DNA from: a virus
Length of the DNA: 23,476 nt
Reading direction: 5' to 3' (one strand)
IMG/VR virus record: IMGVR_UViG_3300020172_005183
Span: 1-23,476 of that record
The notes below the pieces were generated by a model. The model worked only from the letters and a program-made list of their open reading frames with translations. It made no database searches and had not been told where the DNA came from. Of the stretch, positions 1 to 19,312 are shown in pieces (the first letter of the stretch is position 1; each line of letters starts with the position of its first letter). Made by a program: the position numbers and the translations under genes.

Positions 1-1602
1 GTGGTTGGCGCTGACAGCATTGACCTTGCAACAATTAATCAGACCAATACAACCGGCTCTGATGGTACTTCTTTTGTTCAGTCGCACTCTGTTGACTCGT
101 ATGGAAGAATTACTGGAACAGTAACTGCCGCCGTTCAAGACGGGGGGACTACTCAAAAGGGTATTGCTCGGTTTAACTCTAACCATTTCTCTGTTTCGAG
201 CGGTTCTGTGTCTATTGGACAGGCGGTAGCCACAACATCTTCAGTAACATTTGCAGCAGTAACAGCCCCTCTTGTTGGAAATGCCGACACGGCTACGCAA
301 CTTCAAACTGCACGGACAATTAGTCTTTCCGGTGATGTTACTGGCTCGGTTTCATTCTCTGGTTCTGCAGATGCTTCCATAACAGCAACAATTGCAGCCA
401 ACTCGGTTGCGCTAGGAACTGATACGACTGGCAACTATCTAGTTGATTTATCGCAGGGAACCGGCATAACGATTACCCACACTCCCGGAGAAGGTTCGAC
501 GGCAACAATCGCAATTGGTCAAGATGTATCGGCATCGGCGGTTCCCACATTTGGTGGTGTGAATTTAAATGGAGTAATTGTTTTTGAAGGCACAACCGCT
601 AATGATTTTGAAACTTTTCTGTCAGTTACGGACCCAACCGCAGACAGAACAATCACCCTGCCAGATGCCACTGGAACCGTAGCGCTTACAGTAAATAAGC
701 TTTCAGCTTTTGCAGCTACCTCTTCATCGGAACTTGCAGGAATTATTTCAGATGAAACTGGTACTGGTGCGCTCGTATTTGCCAACACGCCAACACTTGT
801 AACGCCAAATATTGGTGCCGCCACCGGCACATCCCTTGTTCTTTCAGGCGACTTAACAGTAAATGGAACAACAACTACTGTTAACTCAACAACAGTAACA
901 ATAGATGACCCAATATTCACCCTTGGTGGAGATACGGCTCCTGGGTCAGATGACAACAAAGACCGAGGTATCGAGTTTAGATATCACTCTGGCACGGCAG
1001 CATCTGTTGGGTTCATGGGTTATGACGATTCTGCGGGAATGTTTACGTTCCTCGTCGGCGCAACGAACTCGTCAGAAGTCTTTTCTGGTACGACTGCTTC
1101 GATAAACGTTGGAATGGTATATATAGGCGGAGCTCAAATTGCTGCTACCAACCTATTGAACGGGGTAACCGGTTCCGGTTCCGTAGCGCTTTCCTCTAGT
1201 GCGGCTTTAGTTAGCCCAACTCTCAGCGGAAGTGTGGCTTTTGATGCTTCGGCAAGCGTCACTCTTCCTGCCAAGACTTTCTTTCCAGAGGAATATCTTG
1301 CGGTCTCGTCTAGCGTTACTTTAAGCTCAACAACTCATAGGTATGCAACTCTTGAAATGACTGCGAGCGCTGGAACTTCAGTAATATCTGTCCCAACAGA
1401 CGCTTCTGACAACTTCCCCATCGGCACCGTAATACAGATAATCAGGGTCGGAGCAGGTGAGGTTCAGATAACAGCGGTTACCCCAGGAACAACGACAGTA
1501 AATAACGCGCTAGGAACTCGCTTGAGAGTGCAGTACTCTACTGCTACACTACGGAAAAGAGCTGCGAATACGTGGCTGTTATCGGGCGACCTTAAGGTTT
1601 AA
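1..1602 (+). CDS. Tail-fibre / receptor-binding protein, 3' part (5' end outside window)
   Basis: The frame is open from the first base, so the GTG at position 1 is probably an internal valine codon and the true start lies upstream. The visible 533 residues are low-complexity and rich in Thr, Ser, Ala, Val and Gly, with short recurring beta-type segments (TLPDATGTVAL, LSGDLTVNGTTTTVNS, GGDTAPGSDDNKDRGIEFR). These are common in tail fibres of aquatic tailed phages and suggest a trimeric beta-structured fibre. The last 30 or so residues (YSTATLRKRAANTW..SGDLKV) match the end of the minus-strand fibre gene at 21613-22617 (YSSATLINRGAADW..GDLKL), so the two share a C-terminal domain. The fibre role is an inference from composition, motifs and neighbouring tail genes. 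Receptor specificity cannot be read. Confidence 0.8.
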   Translation: MVGADSIDLATINQTNTTGSDGTSFVQSHSVDSYGRITGTVTAAVQDGGTTQKGIARFNSNHFSVSSGSVSIGQAVATTSSVTFAAVTAPLVGNADTATQLQTARTISLSGDVTGSVSFSGSADASITATIAANSVALGTDTTGNYLVDLSQGTGITITHTPGEGSTATIAIGQDVSASAVPTFGGVNLNGVIVFEGTTANDFETFLSVTDPTADRTITLPDATGTVALTVNKLSAFAATSSSELAGIISDETGTGALVFANTPTLVTPNIGAATGTSLVLSGDLTVNGTTTTVNSTTVTIDDPIFTLGGDTAPGSDDNKDRGIEFRYHSGTAASVGFMGYDDSAGMFTFLVGATNSSEVFSGTTASINVGMVYIGGAQIAATNLLNGVTGSGSVALSSSAALVSPTLSGSVAFDASASVTLPAKTFFPEEYLAVSSSVTLSSTTHRYATLEMTASAGTSVISVPTDASDNFPIGTVIQIIRVGAGEVQITAVTPGTTTVNNALGTRLRVQYSTATLRKRAANTWLLSGDLKV

Positions 1603-1613: not shown

Positions 1614-2066
1614 ATGGCTGGCGGAGCGAACTCAGAAAAAGAACCAGATGCCCCAAAAGGGACTGTCCCAAACCTTGTTGGGCTAACAAGTGCCGCTGCG
1701 CCTGGGGCCGTAACTACTGCGGGATTCGTAGGTTCTGCTTCTGCAGCCTCCTCAATAACCGACCCAACCGGAAGCATTGGTGCCGGAAACTTGAATAAAG
1801 TTACATCTCAGACAGAAACTGCAGGAGCAGTAATGCCTGTGGGAGAAGTAATTGACTATGTAGTTGCCACTCCATATTTTCCTCCTTTCTTTCCTCCTTT
1901 CTTTCCTCCTTTCTTTCCTCCGTTCTTCCCTCCACACTTTCCTCCGCACTTCCCGCCGCACTTTCCTCCGTTCTTCCCTCCACACTTCCCTCCGCACTTC
2001 CCGCCGCACTTTCCCCCATTCTTCCCTCCACACTTCCCTCCGCACTTCCCTCCTTCGTTTAAGTAA
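1614..2066 (+). CDS. PASTA-like domain protein with 15 FPPx tandem repeats
   Basis: A 150-residue protein, ATG start with AAAGGA about 8 bases upstream, 11 bases after the fibre gene. Residues 17-86 resemble one PASTA domain: it opens with VPNLVGLTSAAA, followed by a segment like the usual extended strand and an ending PVGEVIDYVVATP. PASTA domains are known from cell-wall-binding kinases and penicillin-binding proteins, and occur in phage structural proteins. Residues 89-148 are 15 perfect FPPx units, where x is Phe, His or (last) Ser. The last twelve units show a higher-order pattern of one FPPF and three FPPH. A run this rich in proline should form an extended polyproline-type rod with regularly spaced His and Phe. 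There is no signal peptide or membrane segment. The role is unknown; a virion fibre accessory is plausible because it directly follows a fibre gene. Confidence 0.75.
   Translation: MAGGANSEKEPDAPKGTVPNLVGLTSAAAPGAVTTAGFVGSASAASSITDPTGSIGAGNLNKVTSQTETAGAVMPVGEVIDYVVATPYFPPFFPPFFPPFFPPFFPPHFPPHFPPHFPPFFPPHFPPHFPPHFPPFFPPHFPPHFPPSFK
1878..2057 (+). repeat. 12-bp coding tandem repeat (FPPx), with 48-bp higher-order unit
   Basis: Fifteen in-frame 12-base units each encode Phe-Pro-Pro plus Phe, His or Ser. The first four are near-identical pyrimidine tracts (TTTCCTCCTTTC). From unit 4 on, units group into a 48-base period, FPPF then three FPPH, in about three copies with synonymous differences. 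This suggests expansion by slippage or unequal recombination, with selection on the protein. The plus strand is almost purely pyrimidine in the first part. Confidence 0.9.
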
Positions 2067-2068
2067 AC

Positions 2069-2953
2069 ATGACAGCATTTGACAACATCACATACCCATT
2101 GTCAGAACAGGTAGTTGAAGAAATATCTCTTCCAGTATCTATTTATGACATAAAAATATCTTCAGCGGATACGAGAAATGAAGATATTCTTAGCTCAAGA
2201 CGTGGGAAAGTGACACTTTTATTTAACGTAGCTGCCGGTTGTGGGAATATCCCACAACATTCAGTTCTAGAAGAGCTCAACCAAAAGTACTCAGCAGAAC
2301 CTGATTTTTCAATAGTTGCAGTGACAGTAGATGATTTCGTATGTCATGGTTACCCTGAATTTCAAAATGGCCTAAACTCATACATAAAAGAAAACAATTT
2401 AGACGTAACTCCTGGCCAGCTTGCTAAAACTTACGCAGAGGAAAACTTTGCTACGACTTATGAGTTCACTGAATTAACAAATGGCCGACATGATAAACAT
2501 ACCTATGATGAAAATTATGTTCCTGGACTAGTAAATTTACAGGAGCAGCATGACTTGTGGAAATATCTTACTGGCGCATATTCTGCAGACTTAAATGAGA
2601 ATGGTATTCCATACCATGATGAGCTCATATCCTGGTCTGACGCTGAGCCCATGAAAAAGCCAAAAGACGCTAAGTCATTCGTTCCACTCAGGGGCAACTT
2701 TGAAAAGTTCCTCATAAGCAGGGACGGAAGAAGAATTAAAAGATACGCCAATGGCTTTCTCCTTGGAGAGCGTGACGTAACAAACAATACGTTTCCATGG
2801 GTAAAAGAACACTACATGGAGAATGGGCGCAGGGACCATCGACCAAAGACATCAGAAGATGGGGAAAAATGGCCTAGCTCTGCGCAGAAGTTTGGTATAG
2901 GTTTATCTTTAGAAATTATAAGTAGAGATATAAATACTTATTTGTCATATTAA
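2069..2953 (+). CDS. Glutathione-peroxidase-like (thioredoxin-fold) protein with altered active site
   Basis: A 294-residue protein starting 2 bases after the previous stop, probably by translational coupling since no clear Shine-Dalgarno is seen. It follows the glutathione peroxidase pattern in order: IYDIKI near residue 25, GKVTLLFNVAAGCG at 46-59 with Cys58 at the peroxidatic position, LEELNQKYS at 67-75, VDDF at 87-90, YAEENFATTYEF at 122-133, DLWKYL at 162-167, and GNFEKFLISRDGRRIKRY at 209-226. The usual tetrad is Cys, Gln, Trp, Asn. Here Cys58 and Asn210 are kept, the Gln position is Asp89 and the Trp position is Gly209. It is longer than usual (about 160-180), with an insert at about 170-205 and a C-terminal extension of about 60. 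It may reduce peroxides or act as another thiol oxidoreductase; the substrate is unknown. It is the first non-tail gene of the accessory region. Confidence 0.7.
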   Translation: MTAFDNITYPLSEQVVEEISLPVSIYDIKISSADTRNEDILSSRRGKVTLLFNVAAGCGNIPQHSVLEELNQKYSAEPDFSIVAVTVDDFVCHGYPEFQNGLNSYIKENNLDVTPGQLAKTYAEENFATTYEFTELTNGRHDKHTYDENYVPGLVNLQEQHDLWKYLTGAYSADLNENGIPYHDELISWSDAEPMKKPKDAKSFVPLRGNFEKFLISRDGRRIKRYANGFLLGERDVTNNTFPWVKEHYMENGRRDHRPKTSEDGEKWPSSAQKFGIGLSLEIISRDINTYLSY

Positions 2954-2966
2954 TAAATAAAATAGA

Positions 2967-3854
2967 TTAGTAAAAGCCACCAATTTCATAACCCATAGCT
3001 ACCTTTTCTTCATCGGTTAGCTTGAACGCGTCAACCAAGTATTGAGAATAGTGTTTTACACCATCAATAATTTGCATCTGGTTAGAAACTCTTCCCGCAG
3101 TAGACAAGACACGCTCTTCTTCCATTCTTGCCCACTCTTCAGGTCCATGTTGTTTTTCACTTGACAACCAGTCCTCAGAGCCTTCATTTTTATATTTCAC
3201 AAAAGACCTAATTAAAAATTTTGTTCCAGATTTAACCATCCCTACAGCGTGGAAGTATGGTTCGTCGCCTGGGTAAATCGGGGAGCCAGATGGGAATACG
3301 ACTATGTCACCTGCTTCGGGTTTGTAATCCAAAGAATCGCCAGTCATTGTTGTGAACCTAACTTCACCCCCTTCATAGTCGTCATTTATGTAAACAGTGC
3401 ATGTCAGGAGAAAATTTTCAAATCGGCTAGCGTGCTGGCTAACAATATAGTCCGTATGGTATTGCATTACCCTACCCCCACCAGTGTCAATACCTTCGTA
3501 GTAAGCAGCAAAGCTGACCCGAGATATGATTGAATCTTCGGGAAGCTGAACATCGTTGGCATCTATATAATGAGAGAAAGCACAGCTAATAGCGTTTTGC
3601 AGTCTTTCCTCCATTGACCTTTCGCAATCGTACATGTCATTAGACATATCTGTTGCTTCCGGATTGAACTGTTTTGGTTCGCAAAGCTGTCCAAAACCGT
3701 ACCAATCCATCCATTTACCAAAATAGTATTTACCTTCAGATGAGCCTAATGACTTCCGAAGTGTTGAATGAATGTGGTTTTTGTCCGGGAGAAGACCCTG
3801 ATAAACAAAAATTTTTGGGTATATTTCTTTATACGAAAGATTAATGTTTATCAT
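2967..3854 (-). CDS. 2OG-Fe(II) oxygenase, prolyl-4-hydroxylase-like (lone minus-strand copy)
   Basis: A 295-residue protein with the double-stranded beta-helix signature of the prolyl-4-hydroxylase-like family. Metal ligands: H133 and D135 (YHTDY) and H202 (YFHAV), with K212 ten residues later at the usual 2OG position. NDDYEGGEVRF (158-167) and AGDIVVFPSG (181-190) are typical core strands of the family. It would use O2 and 2-oxoglutarate to hydroxylate an unidentified substrate. It is the only oxygenase in the window on the minus strand, ends 13 bases from the convergent GPx-like gene, and is divergent from the SGNH-like gene at 3934. No clear Shine-Dalgarno precedes the ATG. The C-terminal 60 residues (WARMEEERV.., TDEEKVAMGYEIGGFY) lie outside the catalytic core and are unrecognised. 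Confidence 0.85.
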   Translation of the reverse strand: MININLSYKEIYPKIFVYQGLLPDKNHIHSTLRKSLGSSEGKYYFGKWMDWYGFGQLCEPKQFNPEATDMSNDMYDCERSMEERLQNAISCAFSHYIDANDVQLPEDSIISRVSFAAYYEGIDTGGGRVMQYHTDYIVSQHASRFENFLLTCTVYINDDYEGGEVRFTTMTGDSLDYKPEAGDIVVFPSGSPIYPGDEPYFHAVGMVKSGTKFLIRSFVKYKNEGSEDWLSSEKQHGPEEWARMEEERVLSTAGRVSNQMQIIDGVKHYSQYLVDAFKLTDEEKVAMGYEIGGFY

Positions 3855-3933
3855 GCCCAGATTGTACCACTGCTATTCTCCGTACATCCTCTTGATTCTT
3901 TTCGATATAACAATTTTGGGCTACTATTCGAAT
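3855..3933. other. Divergent intergenic region, likely to hold promoters for both directions
   Basis: A 79-base gap between the minus-strand oxygenase start (3854) and the preferred plus-strand start at 3934, the only clearly divergent junction in the window. The plus frame is open through it from 3844, but that extension would overlap the minus-strand gene and gives a hydrophobic, compositionally odd N-terminus. On the minus strand TACAAT (complement of 3862-3867) resembles a -10 box, and on the plus strand TATAAC is at 3906-3911. No convincing -35 is correctly spaced for either, so promoter assignment is tentative. Confidence 0.35.
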
Positions 3934-5001
3934 ATGCAGAATGGCAAAAGTGAAAATCAAACTGACCCATTTATTTTTTCATTTGACAAAAACTTAGAAA
4001 ATCCATTCTCAATTATTTATGAAGAATCATTTGAACCGCAAGATAGTGAAAAATGCTACACAGGGGCAAATCTTTGTGGGATTACTAATTTTGATGGTTC
4101 TGCTGCTCCTTGGGGAAGAAGACCAATAGAGAAAAATCCGGAATTTGTGTGCATAGGCTGTTCCTGTACGGTATCTATGGGGCTAATTGAAGAATATTCT
4201 TGGCCATCAATAATTAGAGAATTTACTGGGGCAAAAGTTAATAACTTGTCTTCGCCTGGGTCTGGTATTGATTTTCTATCTTCATTTGCAATTGATTCTT
4301 TTGCTCAATTTGGAAAGCCAAAAACAGTATTTGCACTGTTTCCAGACATATACAGAATGTGGACTGTGAATTCGTGTGAGCATATATCTAATGGTAAAAA
4401 TCACACAATACACGCATCATGGCACACAGATGTTTGCGAGTACTTTATGGATGTTCGTCATTCTGCTATGGCTACAGAAGACAAGCCAGTGACGACAAAA
4501 CCATTTTCATATACTGGTTACGACGGTCGGAAAACTACTATTTCCGTTGATGCTACTATCTTCAATAGCTTTACTACACTTGAAATGTTGATGCATTACT
4601 GCCGCATGAATAACATGGAGTTTAAATTTTGCTCATGGGATGATGAAACAAATAAAATATTTTCCAATATTGGCTACTACGATTCTAATTATCAACCAGC
4701 AAAAGTATTGCATTTTGAAAATGAAAAAATATCAAAAAAACAATTAAAAAATAGTAAAACAAATATGGACCAAATTTGGTGGGAAGAAGAAATAAACATA
4801 AGCGACGTGTACCAGATGCCATGGAGAAGACTAGGTTTTGGCGATGAATGTGAACACTTGCCGCAAACTGAATATCAAAAAAAATGTTGGAGTGTTGCTA
4901 GTGATATTGGCAATCATCCGGGCATTCATGACCAAATACATTTTGCAGAACACTTTCTTGGCATGAAGGTAGACAACGATTTCTTAGGGAAACTACCATG
5001 A
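3934..5001 (+). CDS. SGNH-hydrolase-like protein, copy 1
   Basis: A 355-residue protein from the ATG at 3934; the frame extends to 3844 but would overlap the divergent gene. I read a GDSL/SGNH-type pattern. Block I is CIGCSCTVSMGL (73-84) with Ser77 as the likely nucleophile, then WPSIIREFTG and VNNLSSPGSG (102-111) with the oxyanion-type glycine. Block V-like is HPGIHDQIHFAE (328-339) with D333 and H336 in the DxxH arrangement. SGNH enzymes are esterases, lipases or O-acyltransferases acting on small acyl or sugar esters. It is clearly paralogous to the gene at 5752-6834: same block I and V, VNN, PD.YR.W and YSWPSI. Its stop overlaps the next oxygenase start (ATGA), so the two are probably co-translated. 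The function is inferred from these blocks only. Confidence 0.6.
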   Translation: MQNGKSENQTDPFIFSFDKNLENPFSIIYEESFEPQDSEKCYTGANLCGITNFDGSAAPWGRRPIEKNPEFVCIGCSCTVSMGLIEEYSWPSIIREFTGAKVNNLSSPGSGIDFLSSFAIDSFAQFGKPKTVFALFPDIYRMWTVNSCEHISNGKNHTIHASWHTDVCEYFMDVRHSAMATEDKPVTTKPFSYTGYDGRKTTISVDATIFNSFTTLEMLMHYCRMNNMEFKFCSWDDETNKIFSNIGYYDSNYQPAKVLHFENEKISKKQLKNSKTNMDQIWWEEEINISDVYQMPWRRLGFGDECEHLPQTEYQKKCWSVASDIGNHPGIHDQIHFAEHFLGMKVDNDFLGKLP

Positions 5002-5765
5002 GCAAAAAAAGAATTGAATACGGAACTAGGCCGTCGCAACTTTTCGTAATGGAAAACTTTCTAAACGAAGAAGAACTTTCTGTATTCAATAATTTACTTC
5101 TTGTTGATTCAGATTGGGTAAAGCAGGAAAAATATTACCCAGATGTGAGGCAGCACTATACTCTGAGCAATGAAAAAGGAGAAAACCAGGATTTACTAAG
5201 AATAGATAAGGAAGTCAAAGAGAGAATTCACAAAGAGCTAGAAAAATATTATGCTCAATTACTTTTTGTGCCAATAAATCTTTCGTACAACAGGTGGATG
5301 ATTGGCGATGAAATCAAGTCGCACAACGATAGTGGACATACATCTGGTGAGTTGATAATCGAAGAAAGAGGAAATGAAAATTTTCCAGTTCCGATATCAG
5401 AGCATTTTAATGATTATGCATCAGTTGTTTACCTTACGGACGACTATGAAGGCGGAGAGTTTTTTTTCAACTATCTTGGTTACAAGATTAAGCCATCTGC
5501 TGGTGATGTAATTACTTTTCCAGCAAATCATTTTTATACACATGGAGTAACTCAGCTAGTTTCCGGAGAGCGGTTAACCATGACATTATTTTGGCCCGGG
5601 GTAAGGTCCGTGTGCCTAAGCCTAGTGCCGGAGCTTTATACCGACTGGTGGAAGCGTGTATCCAATCCAGAAAGTATTTGGCGCGTTATGCCTCAAAAGT
5701 ACATTGACTCTGTCGATAAAGCAATGCTTCCAGAAAGAATGTGGTTTGACGATGAAGAAGATTAA
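4998..5765 (+). CDS. 2OG-Fe(II) oxygenase, prolyl-4-hydroxylase-like
   Basis: A 255-residue protein starting inside the stop codon of the SGNH-like gene. Metal ligands are H109 and D111 (KSHNDSG) and H182 (YTHGV), with R192 ten residues on (SGERLTMTLFW) for 2OG binding. YLTDDYEGGEFFF (145-157) and KPSAGDVITFPAN (165-177) are typical core strands. The N-terminus (LFVMENFLNEEELSVFNNLL) matches the usual opening helix of this family. A C-terminal tail of about 55 residues, rich in Trp and acidic residues, follows the core. It is sandwiched between two paralogous SGNH-like genes with overlaps on both sides, suggesting a hydroxyl created here is a substrate for, or is protected by, the acyl-type enzymes (inference). 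Confidence 0.88.
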   Translation: MSKKRIEYGTRPSQLFVMENFLNEEELSVFNNLLLVDSDWVKQEKYYPDVRQHYTLSNEKGENQDLLRIDKEVKERIHKELEKYYAQLLFVPINLSYNRWMIGDEIKSHNDSGHTSGELIIEERGNENFPVPISEHFNDYASVVYLTDDYEGGEFFFNYLGYKIKPSAGDVITFPANHFYTHGVTQLVSGERLTMTLFWPGVRSVCLSLVPELYTDWWKRVSNPESIWRVMPQKYIDSVDKAMLPERMWFDDEED

Positions 5766-6834
5766 ACAACATCTACTTAGCCCTGATGAGCTATACTCGC
5801 TTTCTTTTTATTCAGATAGAGCTTCCGATAGCGGATTTTTTTCAATTTACAATACGGCTGAAAATAATTCACCAAAAAAAATAGAGAAACAAGATAGCAA
5901 TGTTCCTTTTACTGGGGTTACCGATAATGGCCTCGTAGACTTCAGCGGAGAGCAAGCACCATATTCAAGAAATAACTTCATAGAGGACCCTTACTACGCA
6001 TGTATTGGGTGCTCGTATACTGTTTCAAAAGGACTTCCAGTAAATTACTCGTGGCCCTCAATCGTTGAGCTGTTTACTGGTAAAACAGTAAATAATTATT
6101 CTGAGCTAGGTGCTGGTTACAGAAAAATATCTTCATTTACGATGGATGCTTCCGCGCGCTATGGTTCACCAAAACATGTTTTAGCACTAATGCCAGACCC
6201 TTATAGGTTCTGGTTTCCTTACTCATGGATTCGAAATGTAGAAATACATTCTTTCAGCTACGAGGGGGACGTAGAGGACAGTGATAATTCTAGTATTGTT
6301 TTTGGTCAGGCATTTTGGGAAGCAACAGTTCAATCCTATACCCATAATCACATGGCGTCTGGACAGGAGCCCCTAAGGCTCGTTGACCATAAGGGGAGAA
6401 AGCATGTTGTCTCTCCAGAACTTGCTGTTTTTGCGAGCATGTCATCTTTATATTCTCTTAAAAGAATATTTGAATCAATGTCTGTGCCATTTGACTGCAT
6501 GACGTGGTTTCATCCCGATAACCCACTTGCTATTGATTCTCATGACTTATTCAACATAAAGAGGAAACCGCAGTTACGGCTTGAAACATCAACTAGTCAT
6601 TTTCAGAAATTCATAGACATGGAACGAGAGATAGGCGGAGATGGTCGGTGGCGCAGACATGGGGCCCCATCCCGCTTGGAAACTTGTGACCACGTGCCGT
6701 TAACTGAGAATCAAACCAAGTTCTGGTATAAATCAATAAACAGCATGCACCCCGGACTGCACGACCAAATACATTATGCCGAACAGCTTCTTGGAGTAGA
6801 AATACCATGTTCAATACTTGAGGAGATGCCGTAA
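5752..6834 (+). CDS. SGNH-hydrolase-like protein, copy 2
   Basis: A 360-residue protein from the ATG at 5752, overlapping the previous gene by 14 bases; the frame extends to 5656 but that part lies in the oxygenase coding sequence. Block I is CIGCSYTVSKGL (84-95) with Ser88, followed by YSWPSIVELFTG, VNNYSELGAGY (113-123) and LMPDPYRFW (146-154). Block V-like is HPGLHDQIHYAE (333-344) with D338 and H341. It has the same length and order of motifs as the copy at 3934-5001 but is well diverged in the middle, so the duplication is not recent. The expected role is an esterase or O-acyltransferase; the substrate is unknown. Its stop overlaps the start of a small basic ORF (TAATG). Confidence 0.6.
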   Translation: MKKIKQHLLSPDELYSLSFYSDRASDSGFFSIYNTAENNSPKKIEKQDSNVPFTGVTDNGLVDFSGEQAPYSRNNFIEDPYYACIGCSYTVSKGLPVNYSWPSIVELFTGKTVNNYSELGAGYRKISSFTMDASARYGSPKHVLALMPDPYRFWFPYSWIRNVEIHSFSYEGDVEDSDNSSIVFGQAFWEATVQSYTHNHMASGQEPLRLVDHKGRKHVVSPELAVFASMSSLYSLKRIFESMSVPFDCMTWFHPDNPLAIDSHDLFNIKRKPQLRLETSTSHFQKFIDMEREIGGDGRWRRHGAPSRLETCDHVPLTENQTKFWYKSINSMHPGLHDQIHYAEQLLGVEIPCSILEEMP

Positions 6835-6972: not shown

Positions 6973-8427
6973 ATGTCATCTAATATTTTATGGGGCATAA
7001 ATGACTCATCGCATGATGCCGCGCTAAGTGTTTTAGTAGACGGTAAAATATGTTTTGCTGCTCATGCGGAACGCTACAACAAGGTGAAGAATTCATTTCA
7101 CATATCTAAAGATTTGATTGATGATGCTATGTCATACGGGCATCCCTCTGCAATTGCCTATTTTGAGAAAAGGTTAAAGAAAAGAATTAGACGCATACTT
7201 TTTGGCGGCATCAATGGTGACTACGGAAATCTTTATACAGATAAATTTCCTGAGTTATCAACTGTCCCTGAACATCAATTCTCACACCACTATTCGCACG
7301 CTGCGGCTGGTTATTATACGTCACAATTTGATGCTGCAACAATTGTCGTAATTGATGCGATTGGGGAGTTTGAGACAGCATCCATTTGGGAGGCACGCGG
7401 AGAGTCAATCAAACGTATTTTTTCCTTAAAATATCCTGTTTCTTTTGGTCTTTTTTATAGTGCATTCACTCACTTGGTAGGGTTGGAGCCGGGCAAGGAA
7501 GAATACATACTGATGGGTATGTCAGCATTTGGGGACCCCCGTAAGTACGGGGAGCGAGTTGGTAGTTACTTCCCATCATTTGCTAATCAACCACATAACT
7601 TGCATCGAGGAGTGCCCAAATGGGGGGAGGTGTTCGACGATGATGACAAGTGTGATATTGCAGCAGCAACACAATCCGTGTATGAAAAAAGACTATTAGA
7701 ATTTATGAGATTTGCTAAAACTATTACATCATCTAATAATCTTGTATTCATGGGAGGGTGCGCCCTGAATTGCAAAGCCAACTCGCTTTTAATGGGTGAA
7801 TGGGGAAAAATCTGGATTATGCCCAATCCTGGAGATGCTGGTTCAAGCCTTGGGGCCGCACTTGCGCTTCATGGTGGACACGTGGAGTGGAATGGTCCGT
7901 ACTTGGGTAAAAACATCTCCCAGACATACCCAGTCGGTGAAATAATTAAAGAACTCCAGAACTCCGGCATTGTTGGAATAGCTTCAGGTAGTGCTGAATT
8001 TGGTCCTCGGGCTCTTGGGAATAGAAGCATCCTTGCAGACCCGCGAAACGCTCTTAATAAAAATATTGTAAATGAAATAAAAAAACGTGAAAAATTCCGT
8101 CCGTTTGCTCCGGTGATTATGGAGGAGTTCTCACATGAATGGTTCGATATGGATGGTTCATCACCGTATATGCAATATGCGGTAAGGTGCAAAAAACCGC
8201 ACCTAATTCCTGCTGTTGTTCATGCTGACGGAACTAGCCGAGTTCAGACCGTAAACAAGGAGCAGCATGCTGGACTGTATGGGGTGCTGGAGCGCTGGCA
8301 CTCCATTACCGGCATTCCCATACTACTTAATACCAGTTTAAATATAAAAAATCAGCCTTTACTTAACGACATGAAAGATGTTGAATTGTGGAGGCGTGAC
8401 AATCCTGACGTATGTCTGCTTACCTGA
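6973..8427 (+). CDS. Carbamoyltransferase, NodU/CmcH family
   Basis: A 484-residue protein with a good Shine-Dalgarno (GAGGA, 6964-6968) before ATG 6973. The N-terminal Kae1-like half has SSHDAALS (12-19), AERYNKVKNS (32-41), SHHYSHAAAGYY (104-115, with the His residues of the family's metal/active site), VVIDAIGE (125-132) and GGCALNCKAN (261-270). The YrdC-like C-terminal half has GSAEFGPRALGNRS (339-352), ADPR and REKFRPFAP (372-380). Family members use carbamoyl phosphate and ATP to form a carbamoyl-adenylate and transfer the carbamoyl group to a hydroxyl on a sugar, antibiotic or nucleoside. It is somewhat shorter than the usual 540-580 residues and stops soon after the GIPILLNTSLN motif. 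It sits between the SGNH/oxygenase group and a run of oxygenases, so an acceptor hydroxyl made by one of them is a reasonable inference. Confidence 0.9.
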   Translation: MSSNILWGINDSSHDAALSVLVDGKICFAAHAERYNKVKNSFHISKDLIDDAMSYGHPSAIAYFEKRLKKRIRRILFGGINGDYGNLYTDKFPELSTVPEHQFSHHYSHAAAGYYTSQFDAATIVVIDAIGEFETASIWEARGESIKRIFSLKYPVSFGLFYSAFTHLVGLEPGKEEYILMGMSAFGDPRKYGERVGSYFPSFANQPHNLHRGVPKWGEVFDDDDKCDIAAATQSVYEKRLLEFMRFAKTITSSNNLVFMGGCALNCKANSLLMGEWGKIWIMPNPGDAGSSLGAALALHGGHVEWNGPYLGKNISQTYPVGEIIKELQNSGIVGIASGSAEFGPRALGNRSILADPRNALNKNIVNEIKKREKFRPFAPVIMEEFSHEWFDMDGSSPYMQYAVRCKKPHLIPAVVHADGTSRVQTVNKEQHAGLYGVLERWHSITGIPILLNTSLNIKNQPLLNDMKDVELWRRDNPDVCLLT

Positions 8428-8472: not shown

Positions 8473-9114
8473 ATGAACAATATTGCTAATGAGCAATCAC
8501 TGGTTAAATCTGGACACTTTGGCTCTAGTTCTGACAATATATTAATAATTGAAAACTTTGTTGAGCAACAAGACTTAGAGACTATTAATAAATTTTTTCC
8601 GCTGATAAATGAGTGGGAGAACGAAAAAGAAGATGAGTTTAACGAAGATGGAATCTGCATATATGATGCCTCGTATTGGCGAGACAGGATGTGTAGTGGG
8701 GAAATACTGAAACGCATTTCCCCGGAAATTTTTAATTTAGTAGATAAATATGTCAACAAGATGGCTACTGCTATTAGTGCGAAGTATGACGTAATGGTTT
8801 CATGCCGACCCCCTGTTCTTATCAGGTGGCTTCCGGGAAACAGTCAGTCTCCGCATGCGGATAAACAGCTGAACGACGGAACCCCAAATCCATTTCCCAC
8901 GTACGACCTTAATTCCGTCATATATTGGAATGAAGCATTTACAGGTGGGCAGATTTATTACCCCCAGCATGACGTAGAGGTGAAGATAAGCTCAGGGATG
9001 GCAGTTGCGCATCCAGGAGATATCAACTATCTTCATGGAGTACGTGAGATAACGTCTGGCGAACGCTGGACAACGCCATCCTTTTATACAATCACTAAAA
9101 TAGGGAGACAATAA
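8473..9114 (+). CDS. 2OG-Fe(II) oxygenase, prolyl-4-hydroxylase-like
   Basis: A 213-residue protein from the first ATG; a TTG at 8437 would add 12 residues without support. A weak AGGG precedes the ATG closely. Metal ligands are H128 and D130 (SPHADKQ) and H188 (YLHGV), with R198 ten residues later (SGERWTTPSFY). IYWNEAFTGGQIYYP (150-164) and ISSGMAVAHPGD (172-183) are the usual core strands. It is close to the minimal size of a single-domain oxygenase of this family. It opens a run of seven genes with overlapping or nearly abutting ends (8473-14797). A 45-base gap separates it from the carbamoyltransferase. The TAA overlaps the next ATG (TAATG). Confidence 0.88.
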   Translation: MNNIANEQSLVKSGHFGSSSDNILIIENFVEQQDLETINKFFPLINEWENEKEDEFNEDGICIYDASYWRDRMCSGEILKRISPEIFNLVDKYVNKMATAISAKYDVMVSCRPPVLIRWLPGNSQSPHADKQLNDGTPNPFPTYDLNSVIYWNEAFTGGQIYYPQHDVEVKISSGMAVAHPGDINYLHGVREITSGERWTTPSFYTITKIGRQ

Positions 9115-9809
9115 TGGAAGTAGCTGGATATATTGGTCATGAAAATGCCGGAATAGTTTTATACAAAAACGTGTGGCCAAGTGATGCCAATTTTGTTGAA
9201 CGTCTTGAGGCAGTTTTAGAGGATAGTCAGCATTCGCGGTATAAGTGGAGCCCTGCAATGGTCGGGGACCAAGAAATTATGAAAGATTACCGTGACTGCT
9301 TTGATTTCAAAATGCGCCAAGGCGAGATGCCAATAGCGGAACCTGGGTTTGAAGAGTTATCATCTGTCTATTTGGAAGTTATGAGTGGTGTACGGGAATG
9401 CATGGAGCACTATTCTGGTTTATACAACTTGAAACTTGGATACGAAGAGGCAACCAACTTCGTTAAGTACGGAGTTGGTCAGCACTTCTCTGTGCATCCA
9501 GATTCTGGTTTTTCCTATAGTTGCGCCGTTTCCAGTATTGGCTACATAGCTGACGGTTATGAAGGTGGAGAGTACTTCATGCCATATCAACAGCTCAAGT
9601 TTTTCCCAGAAAAGGGAGACTTAATCATGCACCCATCTGACTTCATTTATGCACACTCATCAATGCCGGTAACAAAAGGTACAAAGTATTCGGTAGTGAC
9701 CATGTATGACTACAACGACAGAAATCACCAAACTGGTTCGTATGGTTTAAACGTTGTTTCTCAAGCATCCACACTTCCAAATGTTAGTGGTCAGGTAGTA
9801 ACGGCTTAA
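9114..9809 (+). CDS. 2OG-Fe(II) oxygenase, prolyl-4-hydroxylase-like
   Basis: A 231-residue protein whose ATG overlaps the previous TAA. Metal ligands are H128 and D130 (SVHPDSG) and H181 (YAHSSM), with K191 ten residues later (KGTKYSVV). ADGYEGGEYFMPYQ (146-159) and PEKGDLIMHPSD (165-176) fit the core. The 2OG-binding residue is Lys, as in animal and algal prolyl 4-hydroxylases, whereas most oxygenases in this window have Arg. About 30 residues beyond the core (YDYNDRNHQTGSYG..) are Ser/Thr/Val-rich and unassigned. Substrate unknown. The next gene starts at the base after its stop. Confidence 0.87.
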   Translation: MEVAGYIGHENAGIVLYKNVWPSDANFVERLEAVLEDSQHSRYKWSPAMVGDQEIMKDYRDCFDFKMRQGEMPIAEPGFEELSSVYLEVMSGVRECMEHYSGLYNLKLGYEEATNFVKYGVGQHFSVHPDSGFSYSCAVSSIGYIADGYEGGEYFMPYQQLKFFPEKGDLIMHPSDFIYAHSSMPVTKGTKYSVVTMYDYNDRNHQTGSYGLNVVSQASTLPNVSGQVVTA

Positions 9810-10535
9810 ATGGATGTAACCCTGACTAGAACACATCAAAACCCACCAGTTATTCGTCAATCCACCGTTAGAAGAGATTGGATGGATGACACATATAACA
9901 AGCATGCGTATAAGTGCCTCCCTATGACGGAAGCAAATATAGCCGGGTGGGAAATGGTTCTGCAACAGGACGTTGTTGTTCAATGGGATGGTGGTCTTTC
10001 TGTTCCACGAGTTCTTTCTGGTGAATTTGCAACATTCTCTACTGGTGGACAGGAATACCAGCGTGCAATAGTTATGCCCAGCATCGTTGGAATTATGTCA
10101 TTCACTACTGGATGGACATTTTCTACTCCAGAGAATGTGTGGACATGGATATCGGGTTCGCCAAACTATTTTGTAGACGGAGCTGTTCCTTTGTCTGCGA
10201 CTATTCCAAGCGACTGGTGGCCGGATGAGTTCAACATGAATTGGAAGATTACCAAAATTGGAGAACCAGTAACTTTTAGTGCTGGTATGCCATTCATGTT
10301 TTTTCAGTTTTACGATATTTCGACTATGCCATCGGTCAGGTTTAAAGTTGACAATTACTGGGACAAGCCAGAACTCATGGACAGTAGAGCTGCGTACGGT
10401 GCAGCAAAGATGAAAAAACTACACGATGAGCCATGGACTTGGATGGGTGGAATACGTAGCGGTTTGAATGAAAACGGAGAACGCATAGGACCACGCCATG
10501 AAGGCCATATTAAGCTTGAGGAACCAATTCAATGA
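9810..10535 (+). CDS. DUF6065-like protein
   Basis: A 241-residue protein beginning directly after the previous stop. From memory it matches the pattern of DUF6065: a start like THQNPPVIRQSTVRRDWMD (8-26), then HAYKCLPMTEANIAGWE (32-48), QWDGG (58-62), GIMSFTTGWTFSTPE (94-108) and FNMNWKITK (141-149), with the FSAGMPFMFFQFYD stretch (156-169). The family's biochemical role is, to my knowledge, unknown. It is rich in Trp, Pro and aromatic residues and has no signal or membrane segment. It lies between oxygenases with no gaps (its TGA overlaps the next ATG), so it is probably a partner in the same process. The family call should be tested by a profile search. Confidence 0.6.
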   Translation: MDVTLTRTHQNPPVIRQSTVRRDWMDDTYNKHAYKCLPMTEANIAGWEMVLQQDVVVQWDGGLSVPRVLSGEFATFSTGGQEYQRAIVMPSIVGIMSFTTGWTFSTPENVWTWISGSPNYFVDGAVPLSATIPSDWWPDEFNMNWKITKIGEPVTFSAGMPFMFFQFYDISTMPSVRFKVDNYWDKPELMDSRAAYGAAKMKKLHDEPWTWMGGIRSGLNENGERIGPRHEGHIKLEEPIQ

Positions 10536-12118
10536 AGAAGCTAAAGGGTGGAATAGCCGCAGGCTTGCGTCTTGGGAATCTTGGATTTAAGGTTAGGGGA
10601 GTCAGTGCTGCACAAATCATTGAAGATTCTGACTATTTTGCCGAAATATTAATACGAAATAAGATGATTGGGTTCAAGGATGTGAACCCGACAAATGACG
10701 AGTTCGTTAAGATAATGCAGAATATATATAGAGGAGACAATGATTACTCCGCTCTTCGCCCTGGTCTACTGACAGACCAGCAACATCAAGGAAATAAAAA
10801 CACTCAAGTAGATGATGTTGAGTGGTTTATAAATTCTCAATGGCATATGGACAATCCATTTTTAGAAGAAGTACCTTCATACACTGGGTTGAGAATGGAC
10901 AAGTTTACGTGCTCTCCAAATGTTGGGCAAACCCACATATACAGTCTTGTTAATGCCTATAGAGACTGCCCAGAGCATATTAAGCCATATCTGGAAGATG
11001 CGTATTTCGTTAATGGGACAGGTTTCGTTGGTGATGACTTTAGTTCGCTCCCATTGCATCCAGCGCTACGCACGCATCCGGCCACTGGTGAAACAATGCT
11101 GTTTTGGTCTGGTCATGATATGCGGCTACCGAATGGCGAAGAGCAAGCATGGTTTAGCGACTTAAAGGGATATATGCAAAATCAACTGCTGTCTCCTGAG
11201 TTGCGTTATTCGTGGGAGTGGCGTCAGGGAGACTTGGTTATTTGGGATAACAGAGCTGTATTGCATTCATTTTCCCCAGGTTGGTCACATGACCAAAGAA
11301 TCTTTACGAGATGCGAAGTTGGAAAGGAAAAACCAACTTATGAGCCAAATCGAAAAATAATAGTTAATGAAGATTTTGGTGATACGTGGCGCAAAGAAGG
11401 CGTTGAAAAAGACATAACAGTCGGGCCAAATCCAGACCACATACCACTTGTGTTCACAAAAGGAATATATGCACTCTCGGAGTATGCAGACTTATTTCAA
11501 AAAGTAACTTTATTCGTATATTCCGATGACGGAACAATTGGTGAAGATGTAAATGCTTTTAAAAACGAAATCAATAATGATGATTTTAGGGTAGTAACTG
11601 TTGTGCCGTGGGCACCAGCAACTGAACCCTCATTTACATATGACAAGATGAATAGATTTTCTAAGGCTTATTTAGATAACCAGCAAGTAGTCGGGCAAAA
11701 GTTTTTGTTCACACAAAATGGTGACCTGGAGAGAGCTTTTGCTGCAGATGAAGATTTATTCAGAACAGAGCCGTATGAAGATGGCAGGCCAGCTCCGCTT
11801 CCGCTTGTTAGGACCCTTCTGGAAATGCACCCAGACATGCGCCACGCAGGGCATGCTTGGCACTACCCGTGTTGGTTTCCGCATCAACGGAACTTGAAGT
11901 TTCGTCCGTGGGATTGGCATAATCTTTCATTTTTTGAATATGAACAATTTAATGGGGGACCCCCTCCTTTTGATTTTCTTGTTCAGTTTGCTGTGGATAC
12001 GGTTTATGGGTGCTTCAATCACATCGATACCGATAGTGAACGCCGACGCATTATTGAAGCGATAATTGACTACATGCAGTACATGTTGGAGCTGGGGGAG
12101 CATGAGCGCGATAGGTGA
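10532..12118 (+). CDS. TauD/TfdA-like 2OG-Fe(II) dioxygenase with ~230-residue C-terminal extension
   Basis: A 528-residue protein overlapping DUF6065 by ATGA. Residues 1-280 are TauD/TfdA-like: H105 and D107 (QWHMDN), the hallmark HPALRTHPATGE (176-187), GDLVIWDNRAVLHS (233-246) with H245, then R256 and R260 at +11 and +15. That spacing matches E. coli TauD (H255, R266, R270). TauD relatives hydroxylate small molecules such as taurine, amino acids and alkyl sulfonates. Residues from about 300 on are a separate region I do not recognise: it begins HIPLVFTKGIYALSEYADLF, includes VTLFVYSDDG, and holds a block rich in His, Trp and Pro (HAGHAWHYPCWFPHQRN). It is nearly twice the usual length of about 280-300, so this is probably a two-domain fusion. 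Confidence 0.85.
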   Translation: MKKLKGGIAAGLRLGNLGFKVRGVSAAQIIEDSDYFAEILIRNKMIGFKDVNPTNDEFVKIMQNIYRGDNDYSALRPGLLTDQQHQGNKNTQVDDVEWFINSQWHMDNPFLEEVPSYTGLRMDKFTCSPNVGQTHIYSLVNAYRDCPEHIKPYLEDAYFVNGTGFVGDDFSSLPLHPALRTHPATGETMLFWSGHDMRLPNGEEQAWFSDLKGYMQNQLLSPELRYSWEWRQGDLVIWDNRAVLHSFSPGWSHDQRIFTRCEVGKEKPTYEPNRKIIVNEDFGDTWRKEGVEKDITVGPNPDHIPLVFTKGIYALSEYADLFQKVTLFVYSDDGTIGEDVNAFKNEINNDDFRVVTVVPWAPATEPSFTYDKMNRFSKAYLDNQQVVGQKFLFTQNGDLERAFAADEDLFRTEPYEDGRPAPLPLVRTLLEMHPDMRHAGHAWHYPCWFPHQRNLKFRPWDWHNLSFFEYEQFNGGPPPFDFLVQFAVDTVYGCFNHIDTDSERRRIIEAIIDYMQYMLELGEHERDR

Positions 12119-12911
12119 ACATCTTGGAGGTGGTGTTGTTATTTACCGCAACGCCTTTAACCTCGACTGGGAGTGGATGCGAAATTTTTGTCATTCGACA
12201 TTGCTAGAAGAGCGCAATACCATGTATTCACCTGGCGTAGACCCAATAACTGGTGAAGATGGATACATAAATAAAAGTAATTACTTTTTTAAAAAAGATT
12301 CTATTGAAGTAATGCCGTGGAGAGGTAGCCTCATTCATCAAAACGGCGATACTAAAGTCCAGGAGACGATTGACTATCTGGAGAGGGCTAAGGATGAATG
12401 CCTACAGGACTATTTGCATAAATTTCCACTTGCTGGAAAATGTATTTGGTGGCGCATCCGTGGACACATAGTTGCCTACCCAAAGGGTTCATTTCTCGGA
12501 CTACATGCGGACATTCAGACAGAGTACGAATTTGGGAAGCCTCACCCCAAGGACCAATTAGCAACCAGAAATATTGTGTCCGTTGTTGCTTATATGAACG
12601 ACTGTGTTGATAGCTCAGACGAGCTGGATGGTACAAATTTCACTGGCGGGCTTCATTACTTTAACTACTTAGACATAACCATAAAGCCTCAAAAGGGTTC
12701 AATAATATTTTTTCCGTCAAACTACGTTGCTGCGCATGAGGTGCAACCCGTAACAGATGGAATGAGATACTCGTATTTGGGGTGGTACTGCCAGGGAACA
12801 CCGAATTCAGAAGTTCTAGAAAACGTCGTAGACCCAGTCGCCCAGCCGGAAGCAGCTCGAAAGTCATCAAACGTATATATGCCAACCGGCTATAAGTTAA
12901 CGGAGTCGTAG
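12102..12911 (+). CDS. 2OG-Fe(II) oxygenase (WW-RGH subgroup)
   Basis: A 269-residue protein from the ATG at 12102, overlapping the previous gene by 17 bases; GGGGGAG lies just before the ATG. Metal ligands are H135 and D137 (GLHADIQ) and H212 (AAHEV), with R222 ten residues on (DGMRYSYLGWY). It shares IWWRIRGHIVAYPKG (115-129) and IIFFPSNYVAAHEV (201-214) with the oxygenase at 17383-18357 (IWWKARGHVLKYLPG, VVFFPANYVGSHAV) and, more weakly, with the C-terminal domain of the next gene. These three form a subgroup. The HAD-to-strand loop is longer than in the other copies (EYEFGKPHPKDQ). Substrate unknown. The TAG overlaps the next GTG start (TAGTG). Confidence 0.87.
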   Translation: MSAIGEHLGGGVVIYRNAFNLDWEWMRNFCHSTLLEERNTMYSPGVDPITGEDGYINKSNYFFKKDSIEVMPWRGSLIHQNGDTKVQETIDYLERAKDECLQDYLHKFPLAGKCIWWRIRGHIVAYPKGSFLGLHADIQTEYEFGKPHPKDQLATRNIVSVVAYMNDCVDSSDELDGTNFTGGLHYFNYLDITIKPQKGSIIFFPSNYVAAHEVQPVTDGMRYSYLGWYCQGTPNSEVLENVVDPVAQPEAARKSSNVYMPTGYKLTES

Positions 12912-14107
12912 TGTCAATAAAAGTAGGAATTCTCAATACGGGTAAAATGGGGGCTTCGTTAGCGAGGGCGGCAAAAGATAATGGGTGTGAAGTTTTCTGG
13001 GCATCAGAGGGTCGCTCTACTGAAAGCAAGAGCAGGGCACATGAGCTTGCGCTTCATGATGCTGTAACCATAGAAAATATGTGCTCAGTCTGCGATGTGA
13101 TTATTTCAATATGCATGGGTTCCGGTGTGATGCCAAATGCTTTGAACGTTGTTTCTGGTGGATTTAATGGTACGTATGTTGACGCAAACCACATAGGTGA
13201 TGTTTCTCACGAAAATCACTTAAAAAATATAATCGAAGATGCTGGAATTAGTTACGTAGATGCATCGATATATGGCTGGCCGTACCCTCACGAACAAAAT
13301 CCGGATTCTGAAAGAACTCTTTATCTGTCTGGAGGTAAAGCAAATGACGTTAAATCAATATTTCACGGATATATCTTTGATTGTGAAGTAACGGAAATGT
13401 CTGCAAAAGGGGTCAAACGCCAGAGAGAGATAGCTGACAGAGCAGACTGCGCACCACACATTGACCACGGTTATGGGATAGTTGAGTTCCCTAGAATAAT
13501 GCAAATAGAGGATATCTTTATTGATTCCTACATGCAGCGCAGGGAGATTTCTGAGCCACAGGATTATTACGTTGACGAAGAGGGTTTTTATGTAAACCGT
13601 GGCGGCTATAGGTTTACGAAAGAGCACGTAGATAAAGCACCAAGAAGATATTTGAATTTAACGCCTGATGGATGTCCGCAGGAAGATATTGATTTTCACG
13701 CAAAAATCGAAGCCGAGATATCTAAGTGTATAAACGCCTACAGAGGGATATACCCCGAAGTTTATGACTGCGTCAGATGGAGGACGGATGCTCATATTGC
13801 CGCATATCCATCCGGAGCTGGCATGGGTGTACATCATGATAATTCAATCGGAAGTGCCGGAAAGAGCGAAAATCCAATATTCAATGTTCTTTCGCTATCA
13901 TTAGTGCTAAGCGACAGGTGTGAAGGCGGGGAGTTAGAGATGAAATATATAAATAAAGCATTTAAACCACAAAAAGGCACTGTAATCATTTATCCAGCAA
14001 GTTTTCTTGGTAGCCATGCGGTATCAAAAGTAGAATCTGGACTTAGAATTTCATATCTAGAATTCTTTGGACACGGCACCGTTAGTGGCCAGACTAAGCC
14101 GATTTGA
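12911..14107 (+). CDS. Fusion: NAD(P)-binding Rossmann (beta-hydroxyacid dehydrogenase-type) domain plus 2OG-Fe(II) oxygenase
   Basis: A 398-residue protein with a GTG start inside the previous stop. Residues 3-150 look like the N-terminal domain of 6-phosphogluconate/3-hydroxyisobutyrate dehydrogenases: VGILNTGKMGASLARAA (5-21, with G6, G11, G14), then CDVIISICMGSG (61-72), GTYVDANHIG (87-96) and DASIYGWPYP (117-126). The helical C-terminal domain and catalytic lysine of those enzymes are not visible. Residues 250-398 form an oxygenase core: H308 and D310 (GVHHDNS), H369 (GSHAV) and R379 (SGLRISYLEF). About 100 linker residues lie between. The oxygenase half belongs with the 12102 and 17383 copies. 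It could couple an oxidoreduction to hydroxylation, or the Rossmann part could only bind a ligand. No frameshift is needed: it is one continuous frame. Confidence 0.8.
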   Translation: MSIKVGILNTGKMGASLARAAKDNGCEVFWASEGRSTESKSRAHELALHDAVTIENMCSVCDVIISICMGSGVMPNALNVVSGGFNGTYVDANHIGDVSHENHLKNIIEDAGISYVDASIYGWPYPHEQNPDSERTLYLSGGKANDVKSIFHGYIFDCEVTEMSAKGVKRQREIADRADCAPHIDHGYGIVEFPRIMQIEDIFIDSYMQRREISEPQDYYVDEEGFYVNRGGYRFTKEHVDKAPRRYLNLTPDGCPQEDIDFHAKIEAEISKCINAYRGIYPEVYDCVRWRTDAHIAAYPSGAGMGVHHDNSIGSAGKSENPIFNVLSLSLVLSDRCEGGELEMKYINKAFKPQKGTVIIYPASFLGSHAVSKVESGLRISYLEFFGHGTVSGQTKPI

Positions 14108-14119: not shown

Positions 14120-14797
14120 ATGAAAGTTATAGACGAATTTCTCAGTGACGAAATATGCAATTCAATAGTTAATGACAAATCATTTTTCCCAATGTCCATG
14201 GGGAGCGATGAACGAATTGCTTCAGAAATTAACTCATACCATAGTGAGCAGGCTGACTGCTTTGCTCCGTATATGTTCTGGGATGGTTGGGGTAGGTCTG
14301 AGCCAAAATCACTAAAACAGTTAGTCGTGAAGCATATTTGGGAAAATAACTTGCCGTTTCCAGTTGACGAGCTTTGTGGTTTTGAATATTGGACTAGAAC
14401 ATTTAATCAGCGTCAATTTCTTGGTCCACATGTAGACGAAGATACATTTAGGTACGCAAAGACTAAAATTTTGACAGGTCCGCAGATTGGCTGCGTTTAT
14501 TACGGGCCAGAAACAGATACTGGCAATGGTGGGTTTCTGGAGATATATCCTCACAAAATAGATGACTATACAGAAAACGCTCTTGAATCAAGTCATGTTG
14601 GTGAATTACTCGTTGACATATCAGAGCGCGAACGTATCTCATGTAAGCCCAATAGATTGATAATTTTTGATGCTGGACACGTGCTTCACGGTACAACTCC
14701 AATGATTTCAGGCCAAAGAAATGTAATGATTGTAAATGTTTGGCACCGAGACCTCCCCCCAACAGCGCTTGACACTGGTGATTTTTACTACGAATAG
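14120..14797 (+). CDS. 2OG-Fe(II) oxygenase
   Basis: A 225-residue protein, ATG 12 bases after the previous stop in an AT-rich gap with no obvious Shine-Dalgarno. Metal ligands are H104 and D106 (GPHVDED) and H190 (VLHGT), with R200 ten residues later (SGQRNVMIVNVWH). KPNRLIIFDAGH (176-187) replaces the usual AGDxxxFP strand, and the spacing between HxD and the distal His is longer (84 residues), with a loop GPETDTGNGGFLEIYP (129-144). This is a more distant member than the other single-domain copies. It ends the run of closely packed genes that began at 8473. Confidence 0.85.
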   Translation: MKVIDEFLSDEICNSIVNDKSFFPMSMGSDERIASEINSYHSEQADCFAPYMFWDGWGRSEPKSLKQLVVKHIWENNLPFPVDELCGFEYWTRTFNQRQFLGPHVDEDTFRYAKTKILTGPQIGCVYYGPETDTGNGGFLEIYPHKIDDYTENALESSHVGELLVDISERERISCKPNRLIIFDAGHVLHGTTPMISGQRNVMIVNVWHRDLPPTALDTGDFYYE

Positions 14798-18357: not shown

Positions 18358-19312
18358 ATCTGCTGAACAATATGTTTTTGATTTTAAAGGAATCGAAGAC
18401 ATAAGAAACAACTTTAGTGCTTATGCGGATGCATTCAAAACCCATGGGATTATTTGTTTCCGTGGCGCATTCCTTGACATATACAAGGGCACAGAGGTCC
18501 TTGCTGCTGTGTCAAAGGGCCTTAATTGGACTCCTGTATACAAGAGTCAGGACGGGAAGGTAGCAGATTGGAGGTATACGCAAAATTACGACGATAGGGC
18601 AAATACTTTTGTTACGTCAGAAGTGCAGCAAGGATTAATAAACCCATGGCATCTTGAGGGAATGTACAAGAAGCACACAATGCACGCAGTCGGATGGAGT
18701 ATGCGAAATTTCAAATGCGATAGCTCTGTCGGGCAAACCGGATTTATTGATGCATCCGAACTTGTTTCTATTATGCCTGCAGACATGTACGCATTTATGA
18801 AAAAAGCAAAGCTTATACATTACCCAATATTTGCACGCAAGGTACCAGAACCTTACCAGCCAATGCTCGACCATTTTGCGGCAGAGATGGATGCCATGCA
18901 TGAAAAAATTTGGTCAGTTGATGGCGATACGGAAATGTCAAGCAATGCGCATGATGCAATACAAAATCACCCAACTTTTGGGTATGAGGTTCTTAGATTG
19001 TGTCCATGTTGCGAGCGATGGGGAAATCAGCATCTGCTATTTTCCGTCGATGGGCAAAAACCGACAGAAAAAGATAATCAATTTTTTAAAACAATACAGG
19101 ATTGGCTGAAAGAAATTATCACTGACGAGTCCTTAGCTTGGTACCATGAATATCAAGAAGGTGATTTTGTAATCCCTGATTTATTTATAATGATTCACTC
19201 CGCAAAAGGAGGGTTTGCTCCTGGGGAACGGGAATTTGATGGAATGTGGTGTTTCCAAAAAAAGGTAGACTACGATGAAAATAAAGCCATACCAATAAGG
19301 CAGGAAAAATAA
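18344..19312 (+). CDS. TauD / clavaminate-synthase-like 2OG-Fe(II) dioxygenase with HxE
   Basis: A 322-residue protein. The family layout is visible: THGIICFRGAF (33-43), NPWHLEG (100-106) with H103 and E105, FKCDSSVGQTGFID (123-136), EGDFVIPDLFIMIHS (272-286) with H285, and R296 eleven residues later. Glu in place of Asp is known in clavaminate synthase, AsnO and VioC, so the triad can still be functional. Those relatives hydroxylate free or carrier-bound amino acids. Unusual here is LRLCPCCERWGNQH (217-230), a CxCC cluster in the position of the HPxTG loop of TauD relatives. It starts inside the preceding oxygenase. Confidence 0.75.
   Translation: MKRVKSAEQYVFDFKGIEDIRNNFSAYADAFKTHGIICFRGAFLDIYKGTEVLAAVSKGLNWTPVYKSQDGKVADWRYTQNYDDRANTFVTSEVQQGLINPWHLEGMYKKHTMHAVGWSMRNFKCDSSVGQTGFIDASELVSIMPADMYAFMKKAKLIHYPIFARKVPEPYQPMLDHFAAEMDAMHEKIWSVDGDTEMSSNAHDAIQNHPTFGYEVLRLCPCCERWGNQHLLFSVDGQKPTEKDNQFFKTIQDWLKEIITDESLAWYHEYQEGDFVIPDLFIMIHSAKGGFAPGEREFDGMWCFQKKVDYDENKAIPIRQEK

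Follow-up and report, generated by a model that had tools for sequence, protein, structure and literature searches.

The window analyzed here is a virus record of 23,476 bases (IMG/VR record IMGVR_UViG_3300020172_005183), and the element in question is a gene for a proline-rich repeat protein (1614..2066, + strand) that lies in a locus with many prolyl-hydroxylase-like 2-oxoglutarate (2OG) oxygenase genes. The product of this open reading frame (ORF), 150 amino acids long, consists of a PASTA-like domain (residues 17-81, 1662..1856) followed by 15 consecutive in-frame FPPx units (residues 89-148, 1878..2057), where x is F, H or, in the last unit, S. We refer to these units as the rod, a putative hydroxylase substrate. 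A preliminary description of the locus had reported the 15 units, which are confirmed here, and had missed the PASTA-like N-terminus. The latter matches Pfam family PF03793 with 20.2 bits (E 5.7e-4), below the cut-off of 23.2 bits; 14 of 16 aligned members of the rod family match the same profile at E <= 0.01, and one relative exceeds the cut-off with 24.6 bits. The 12-base array within the gene was detected by Tandem Repeats Finder, and when the protein was shuffled 100,000 times, eight or more FPP triplets arose only once. The 15 units comprise 8 different 12-mers whose differences are confined to synonymous third bases and the x codon; thus, the array looks coding. The reading frame is kept in 25 IMG/VR relatives, each of which encodes FPP[F/H/Y] repeats behind a PASTA-like domain. 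The repeat is F-P-P-x and does not show the Gly-x-y triplets of collagen-like proteins. Apart from the last residue of the protein, the rod region contains neither Lys nor Arg, so it would be invisible to ordinary tryptic virion proteomics. The AlphaFold2 (AF2) model of the rod protein (pLDDT 51) was unusable.

To describe rods as a class, we examined matches to three FPPx units with x left free, of which IMG/VR contains at least 120. Among 1214 units in 87 distinct rod ORFs, x was F in 711, Y in 239, H in 194 and W in 9, that is, aromatic or His in 95% (1153/1214). The N-terminal domain of these proteins is either PASTA-like or of the fibronectin type III (Fn3) type, and a Peptidase_S74 chaperone domain (E 3.7e-11 in relative L070), an Ig-like domain or an intein/Hint-like domain comes after the rod in some of them. 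Three rod proteins (L113:8066-9304, L032:3762-5012 and L108:1762-3084) run into an intein/Hint-like domain, with a Pfam match in L113 only, hinting at self-processing. Some related rods, also at oxygenase arrays, are built of FPFF or FF[SA]PPx units, the second of these types at L316, L346, L351 and L364. Two loci (L078 and L126) carry non-aromatic FPPR and FPPE repeats, and the 3 kb downstream of these contain no oxygenase. A tblastn search with three PASTA-rod members and one Fn3-rod protein against 50,697 phage records gave no match, the low-complexity filter masking the rod.

The preliminary description had called the locus rich in prolyl-4-hydroxylase-like oxygenases, and the present counts agree: the window contains six PF13640 matches, seven domains by the profile built here and eight if a weak candidate (14120-14797) is included, plus two TauD-type oxygenases. 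The pairing of rods with oxygenases is far beyond chance, strong and specific. PF13640 was detected in all 26 PASTA-rod records, the window included, and in 46 of 50 large IMG/VR contigs chosen by the FPPx pattern alone (45 over the cut-off), usually in several copies and with up to 11 oxygenases per rod contig. To obtain these 50, contigs shorter than about 17 kb were dropped from 80 listed matches, as were three already in the PASTA set. By comparison, one of 41 random contigs contained PF13640 (Fisher p 5e-20), these being the contigs of 15-150 kb scanned among the listed matches to a random 14-mer. With a profile derived from the window domains, the density of oxygenase ORFs was 298 per 1.11 Mb at rod loci, as against 1 per 0.96 Mb in the random set. 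An oxygenase occurs within 3 kb downstream of 85 of the 102 distinct rods for which that much sequence is available. In four contigs where the rod lies away from the end (two of which, G186 and G188, look like one phage), 26 of 28 PF13640 matches fall within 15 kb of it.

The relationship was also seen within a single lineage, defined by a portal gene taken from a rod contig, together with its relatives (40 records: 37 of 80 loci, on contigs of at least 20 kb, plus 3 isolates). PF13640 was present in 5/5 rod-bearing versus 6/35 rod-less records (p 7e-4). As to the phages themselves, distal parts of rod contigs encode terminases, a portal and tail sheaths, and one rod-contig portal is closest to those of Brevibacterium and Gordonia phages. 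A T4-like (Kyanoviridae) origin was considered; the Gp23 profile PF07068 is silent in the 50 rod contigs but also in the controls, and so shows little.

To identify the oxygenases that follow rods, 787 domains were aligned, reduced to 583 at 92% identity and placed in a tree. Clade A of this tree contains 40 domains, 38 of them from rod loci and none from the 50 isolate domains; for L066, one of the two exceptions, the contig starts inside a rod and so truncates its ORF. Clade-A genes are found on the downstream side of the rod, in many cases 6-330 bases away and mostly within 2.3 kb. The window member, P4H-A (8473..9114, +), is placed 6.4 kb downstream, with the genes of 2069-8427 intervening; the corresponding gap in relatives L002 and L005 is 1.7-1.8 kb. 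Rods are also followed by a second clade, B, which counts 99 members (80 of them at rod loci) and contains neither an isolate domain nor one from the window.

In a converse search, loci were fetched by the clade-A alignment alone, ignoring rods, and the best 80 of 569 matching stretches were examined. An aromatic-proline rod was found in 71 of these 80 loci, as a rule close to the enzyme gene on its upstream side: upstream on the same strand in 55 and on the other strand in 16, and in 31 of 32 clade-A clusters at 90% identity; the same search found rods in 0/120 random loci. In a collection of bacterial and archaeal genomes (84,980 species), two contigs match clade A, both of which carry a PASTA-FPPx rod. 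The link between rods and this oxygenase clade thus holds whichever of the two is used as the starting point. In addition, clade A is common to rods with Fn3 and PASTA N-termini; since the link to clade A persists across different N-terminal domains, the rod is the shared candidate substrate, and an enzyme-substrate pair is the simplest explanation.

These associations might alternatively reflect a shared hot spot, in which a variable island behind tail-fibre genes gathers rods and oxygenases while the enzymes act elsewhere. Both rods and arrays do lie directly behind fibre genes: the window rod follows a fibre-like gene directly, and in L502-L505 the order is a large, fibre-type gene, the rod and then the oxygenase array, with a small gene between in two of them. 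Moreover, the isolate S-CAM7 has an oxygenase near a fibre gene and no rod, and the SGNH-like, carbamoyltransferase and TauD genes of the island vary between relatives. However, a hot spot would leave unexplained why one clade has rods in 71/80 loci, often 6-330 bp away and with any N-terminal domain, and why isolate domains are absent from clades A and B. We therefore regard a hot spot alone as unlikely.

The genes that accompany P4H-A were examined in the 73 loci that were new among the 80 clade-A loci, by counting BLAST homologues at E 1e-10, which are not orthologues. P4H-2 (9114..9809, +; PF13640 E 2.2e-7) has a homologue in 70/73 and the DUF6065 protein (9810..10535, +; PF19541 E 2.6e-39) in 69/73. 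The triad of P4H-A, P4H-2 and DUF6065 is complete in 85 examined loci, on one strand in 72 and consecutive in 43 of the 72. For DUF6065, no solved relative was found below E 0.1 and the literature search gave no paper. It had been proposed that nearby carbamoyltransferase or SGNH enzymes might decorate the rod, an idea that loses ground here: homologues of the two SGNH-like genes occur in 5/73 and 3/73 loci and those of the carbamoyltransferase in 3/73. Thus, the second oxygenase and DUF6065 belong to a conserved module, and the SGNH-like and carbamoyltransferase genes do not.

Several other genes fill the island. A glutathione-peroxidase/thioredoxin-like protein (2069..2953, +; PF00255 E 9e-7) has a homologue in 20/25 PASTA-rod loci. 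The interval 1614-5765, in which a substrate candidate had initially been proposed, contains two oxygenases, encoded at 2967..3854 (-; PF13640 E 2.1e-9) and 4998..5765 (+; PF13640 E 8.5e-8) and both outside clade A. The existence of such a candidate in the locus is supported by the co-occurrence and by the clade tied both ways, but the best enzyme (8473-9114) lies outside this interval. Two proteins which we take to be SGNH-like on the basis of a motif are encoded at 3844..5001 (+) and 5752..6834 (+), with no supporting Pfam or PHROG family at E <= 0.1 for either, followed by a NodU-type carbamoyltransferase (6973..8427, +; PF16861, PF02543). Beyond the triad are a TauD-type oxygenase with a C-terminal extension (10532..12118, +; PF02668 E 4.3e-26), a 2OG oxygenase (12066..12911, +; PF13640 E 6.4e-12), a NAD(P)-binding-like domain (weak PF03446/PF03807) fused to a 2OG oxygenase (12911..14107, +; PF13640), a weak 2OG oxygenase (14120..14797, +; PF13640 E 2.9e-5, below the cut-off), a further 2OG oxygenase (17383..18357, +; PF13640 E 7.7e-11) and a second TauD-type oxygenase (18344..19312, +; PF02668 E 4.6e-16).

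Directly upstream of the rod gene is a tail-fibre-like structural gene with an open left end (1..1602, +), which matches PHROG 697 structural protein (E 7e-47) and, by tblastn, cyanophage fibre proteins. Together with a second fibre-like gene (21613-22617, -), whose C-terminal end is similar, it brackets the island. The gene at 20174-21643 (-) encodes an Fn3 domain and then a long glycine-rich region, reminiscent of gp38-type adhesins. The oxygenases could also modify another part of the virion, such as collagen-like G-x-y fibre repeats, or a glycan, with the rod as a structural partner. Collagen-like GPTGPTG/GATGAT genes adjoin an oxygenase array with an FPFF rod in L496 (1002-7624, -) and offer such an alternative substrate, an isolate oxygenase adjoins a glycosyltransferase, and the up to 11 oxygenases per contig exceed the need of one substrate. 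Nevertheless, the fibre gene of the window shows neither a direct repeat of 20 bases or more nor, by eye, a collagen-type repeat, and the rod is the element common to clade-A loci. We consider this alternative quite improbable.

The nature of the clade-A enzyme was investigated by modelling. The AF2 model of P4H-A (pLDDT 90.5) has the double-stranded beta-helix fold of 2OG oxygenases. Its closest solved folds (VIA-align) are human prolyl 3-hydroxylase 1 (P3H1; Z 17.3), the viral prolyl hydroxylase vCPH (16.1) and PHD2 (16.1), near which are also an uncharacterized Shewanella oxygenase (16.1) and PiuC (15.8), values within 1 Z being tied; Foldseek aligned the model with P3H1 at E 1e-9. Sequence profile matches were to P3H1 (2.7e-7), a bacterial prolyl 4-hydroxylase (P4H) from Bacillus (4e-5) and PiuC. 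Residues H129, D131, H189 and R199 are invariant in 34 sequences and fit the HxD...H triad with a distal R/K, which have iron and 2OG roles in this family. The model therefore points to a prolyl-hydroxylase fold, and proline is predicted from this fold as the likeliest modified residue, although a shared fold does not show function. Alternatively, Phe, Tyr or His of the rod might be the target: F is constant, x is aromatic or His in nearly all units, and hydroxylation of His or Asn by 2OG oxygenases is known. Since most of the nearest solved folds belong to protein prolyl hydroxylases, we give this possibility very little weight.

Based on its place in clade A, the converse search and the structural comparison, P4H-A is the best candidate for a rod hydroxylase. 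A number of observations weigh against this interpretation. The domain tree rests on 88 columns, and its non-rod set was chosen with a sequence motif, so that clade A may be under-represented there. The 80 stretches of the converse search were ranked by likeness to the window enzyme, which puts the far edge of clade A outside the sample. No rod was seen in nine of these 80 loci. In eight the sequence stops within 2.3 kb on the upstream side of the gene, and in one (L613) 43 bases past it on the downstream side; truncation would account for this but is not proven. P4H-A itself scores 19.7 with PF13640, under the 27-bit cut-off, whereas six other members of the island match. Seventeen of 102 distinct rods lack an oxygenase within 3 kb downstream, four of 50 large rod contigs lack any PF13640 oxygenase, and only 10 of 50 contigs chosen by an oxygenase motif contain at least two FPPx units. 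Finally, the patterns used found a rod in none of 18 cultured or single-cell marine phages (13 chosen through an oxygenase hit and five not), all of which carry PF13640 (1-13 matches each).

The last result indicates that the oxygenase class as a whole is not dependent on rods, and that the targets of most phage oxygenases lie elsewhere. The preliminary description had suggested asking whether repeat proteins and oxygenases occur together in related phages and had counted oxygenases kept without a proline repeat as evidence against the idea. They do so in 46/50 rod contigs and 71/80 clade-A loci, but not in the 18 marine phages; the adverse finding therefore applies to the oxygenase class, whereas clade A is found with rods in most loci. 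Array size lends weak support to a link: among oxygenase-motif contigs of at least 30 kb, rods were present in 8/9 with five or more PF13640 matches versus 0/11 with four or fewer, an uneven comparison because contigs of the former group were inspected locally as well and FF[SA]PP rods escape the whole-contig patterns.

Taken together, we think it probable that the rod belongs to a tail-fibre-associated protein whose prolines are hydroxylated by the dedicated enzyme P4H-A, probably with P4H-2. The repeat, its family, the two-way link with one oxygenase clade and the prolyl-hydroxylase fold of the P4H-A model are results of this analysis, whereas we infer the rod as substrate, proline as the residue, the presence of the rod protein on the virion, its hydroxylation and any later decoration. 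The rod gene would produce a small tail-fibre-associated protein with an aromatic-proline repeat, (F-P-P-[F/H/Y])n, whose prolines P4H-A (8473-9114), probably together with P4H-2 (9114-9809), would hydroxylate post-translationally. Hydroxylation might stiffen and solubilize a very hydrophobic polyproline-type rod, and the hydroxyls could serve further modification by DUF6065 or other island genes. More tentatively, uncultured aquatic phages may possess a mobile hydroxyproline-fibre module, in which a rod (FPPx, FPFF or FF[SA]PPx) and its own prolyl hydroxylase, in most cases joined by DUF6065 and another oxygenase, build an extensin-like modified virion fibre. If so, large oxygenase arrays would be mainly machinery for fibre maturation and not metabolic genes.

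Marine phages often carry prolyl-hydroxylase-like oxygenases as extra genes. The present pair, one candidate enzyme and one candidate substrate linked genetically both ways, makes the substrate question directly testable and, if confirmed, would mean that phages use hydroxyproline chemistry for fibres. The literature search found the string FPPFFPP in no paper, and no paper was recognized as describing such a rod-hydroxylase pair. Phage 2OG-Fe(II) oxygenases of PHROG 61 are widespread in marine phages and structurally similar to human EGLN3; in the accessible portion of that report their advantage is only inferred and no substrate is named (PMC12774648). None of the isolate domains analyzed here belongs to clade A or B. 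Another study describes the use that viruses make of prolyl 4-hydroxylase as "cryptic" (PMC9301287). The small prolyl 4-hydroxylase vCPH, encoded by the chlorella virus PBCV-1, acts on proline-containing peptides, and the accessible part of the source describes its role as unknown and reports no hydroxyproline in virion proteins (PMC7019647). Like vCPH, which is among its closest folds (Z 16.1), P4H-A is a small, predicted viral prolyl hydroxylase; unlike in PBCV-1, the phage genes for enzyme and repeat are neighbours and are inherited together, the repeat being F-P-P-[F/H/Y]. Plant extensins and other hydroxyproline-rich glycoproteins have proline runs spaced by aromatic residues, which are hydroxylated by P4H. 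The phage rod differs from extensins in lacking the Ser-Pro4 motif. Animal P3H1, the closest solved relative of P4H-A, and collagen P4H provide a further parallel, as 2OG prolyl hydroxylases paired with a long repetitive proline rod; in contrast to collagen, the phage rod is built without Gly-x-y and its repeat has four residues instead of three.

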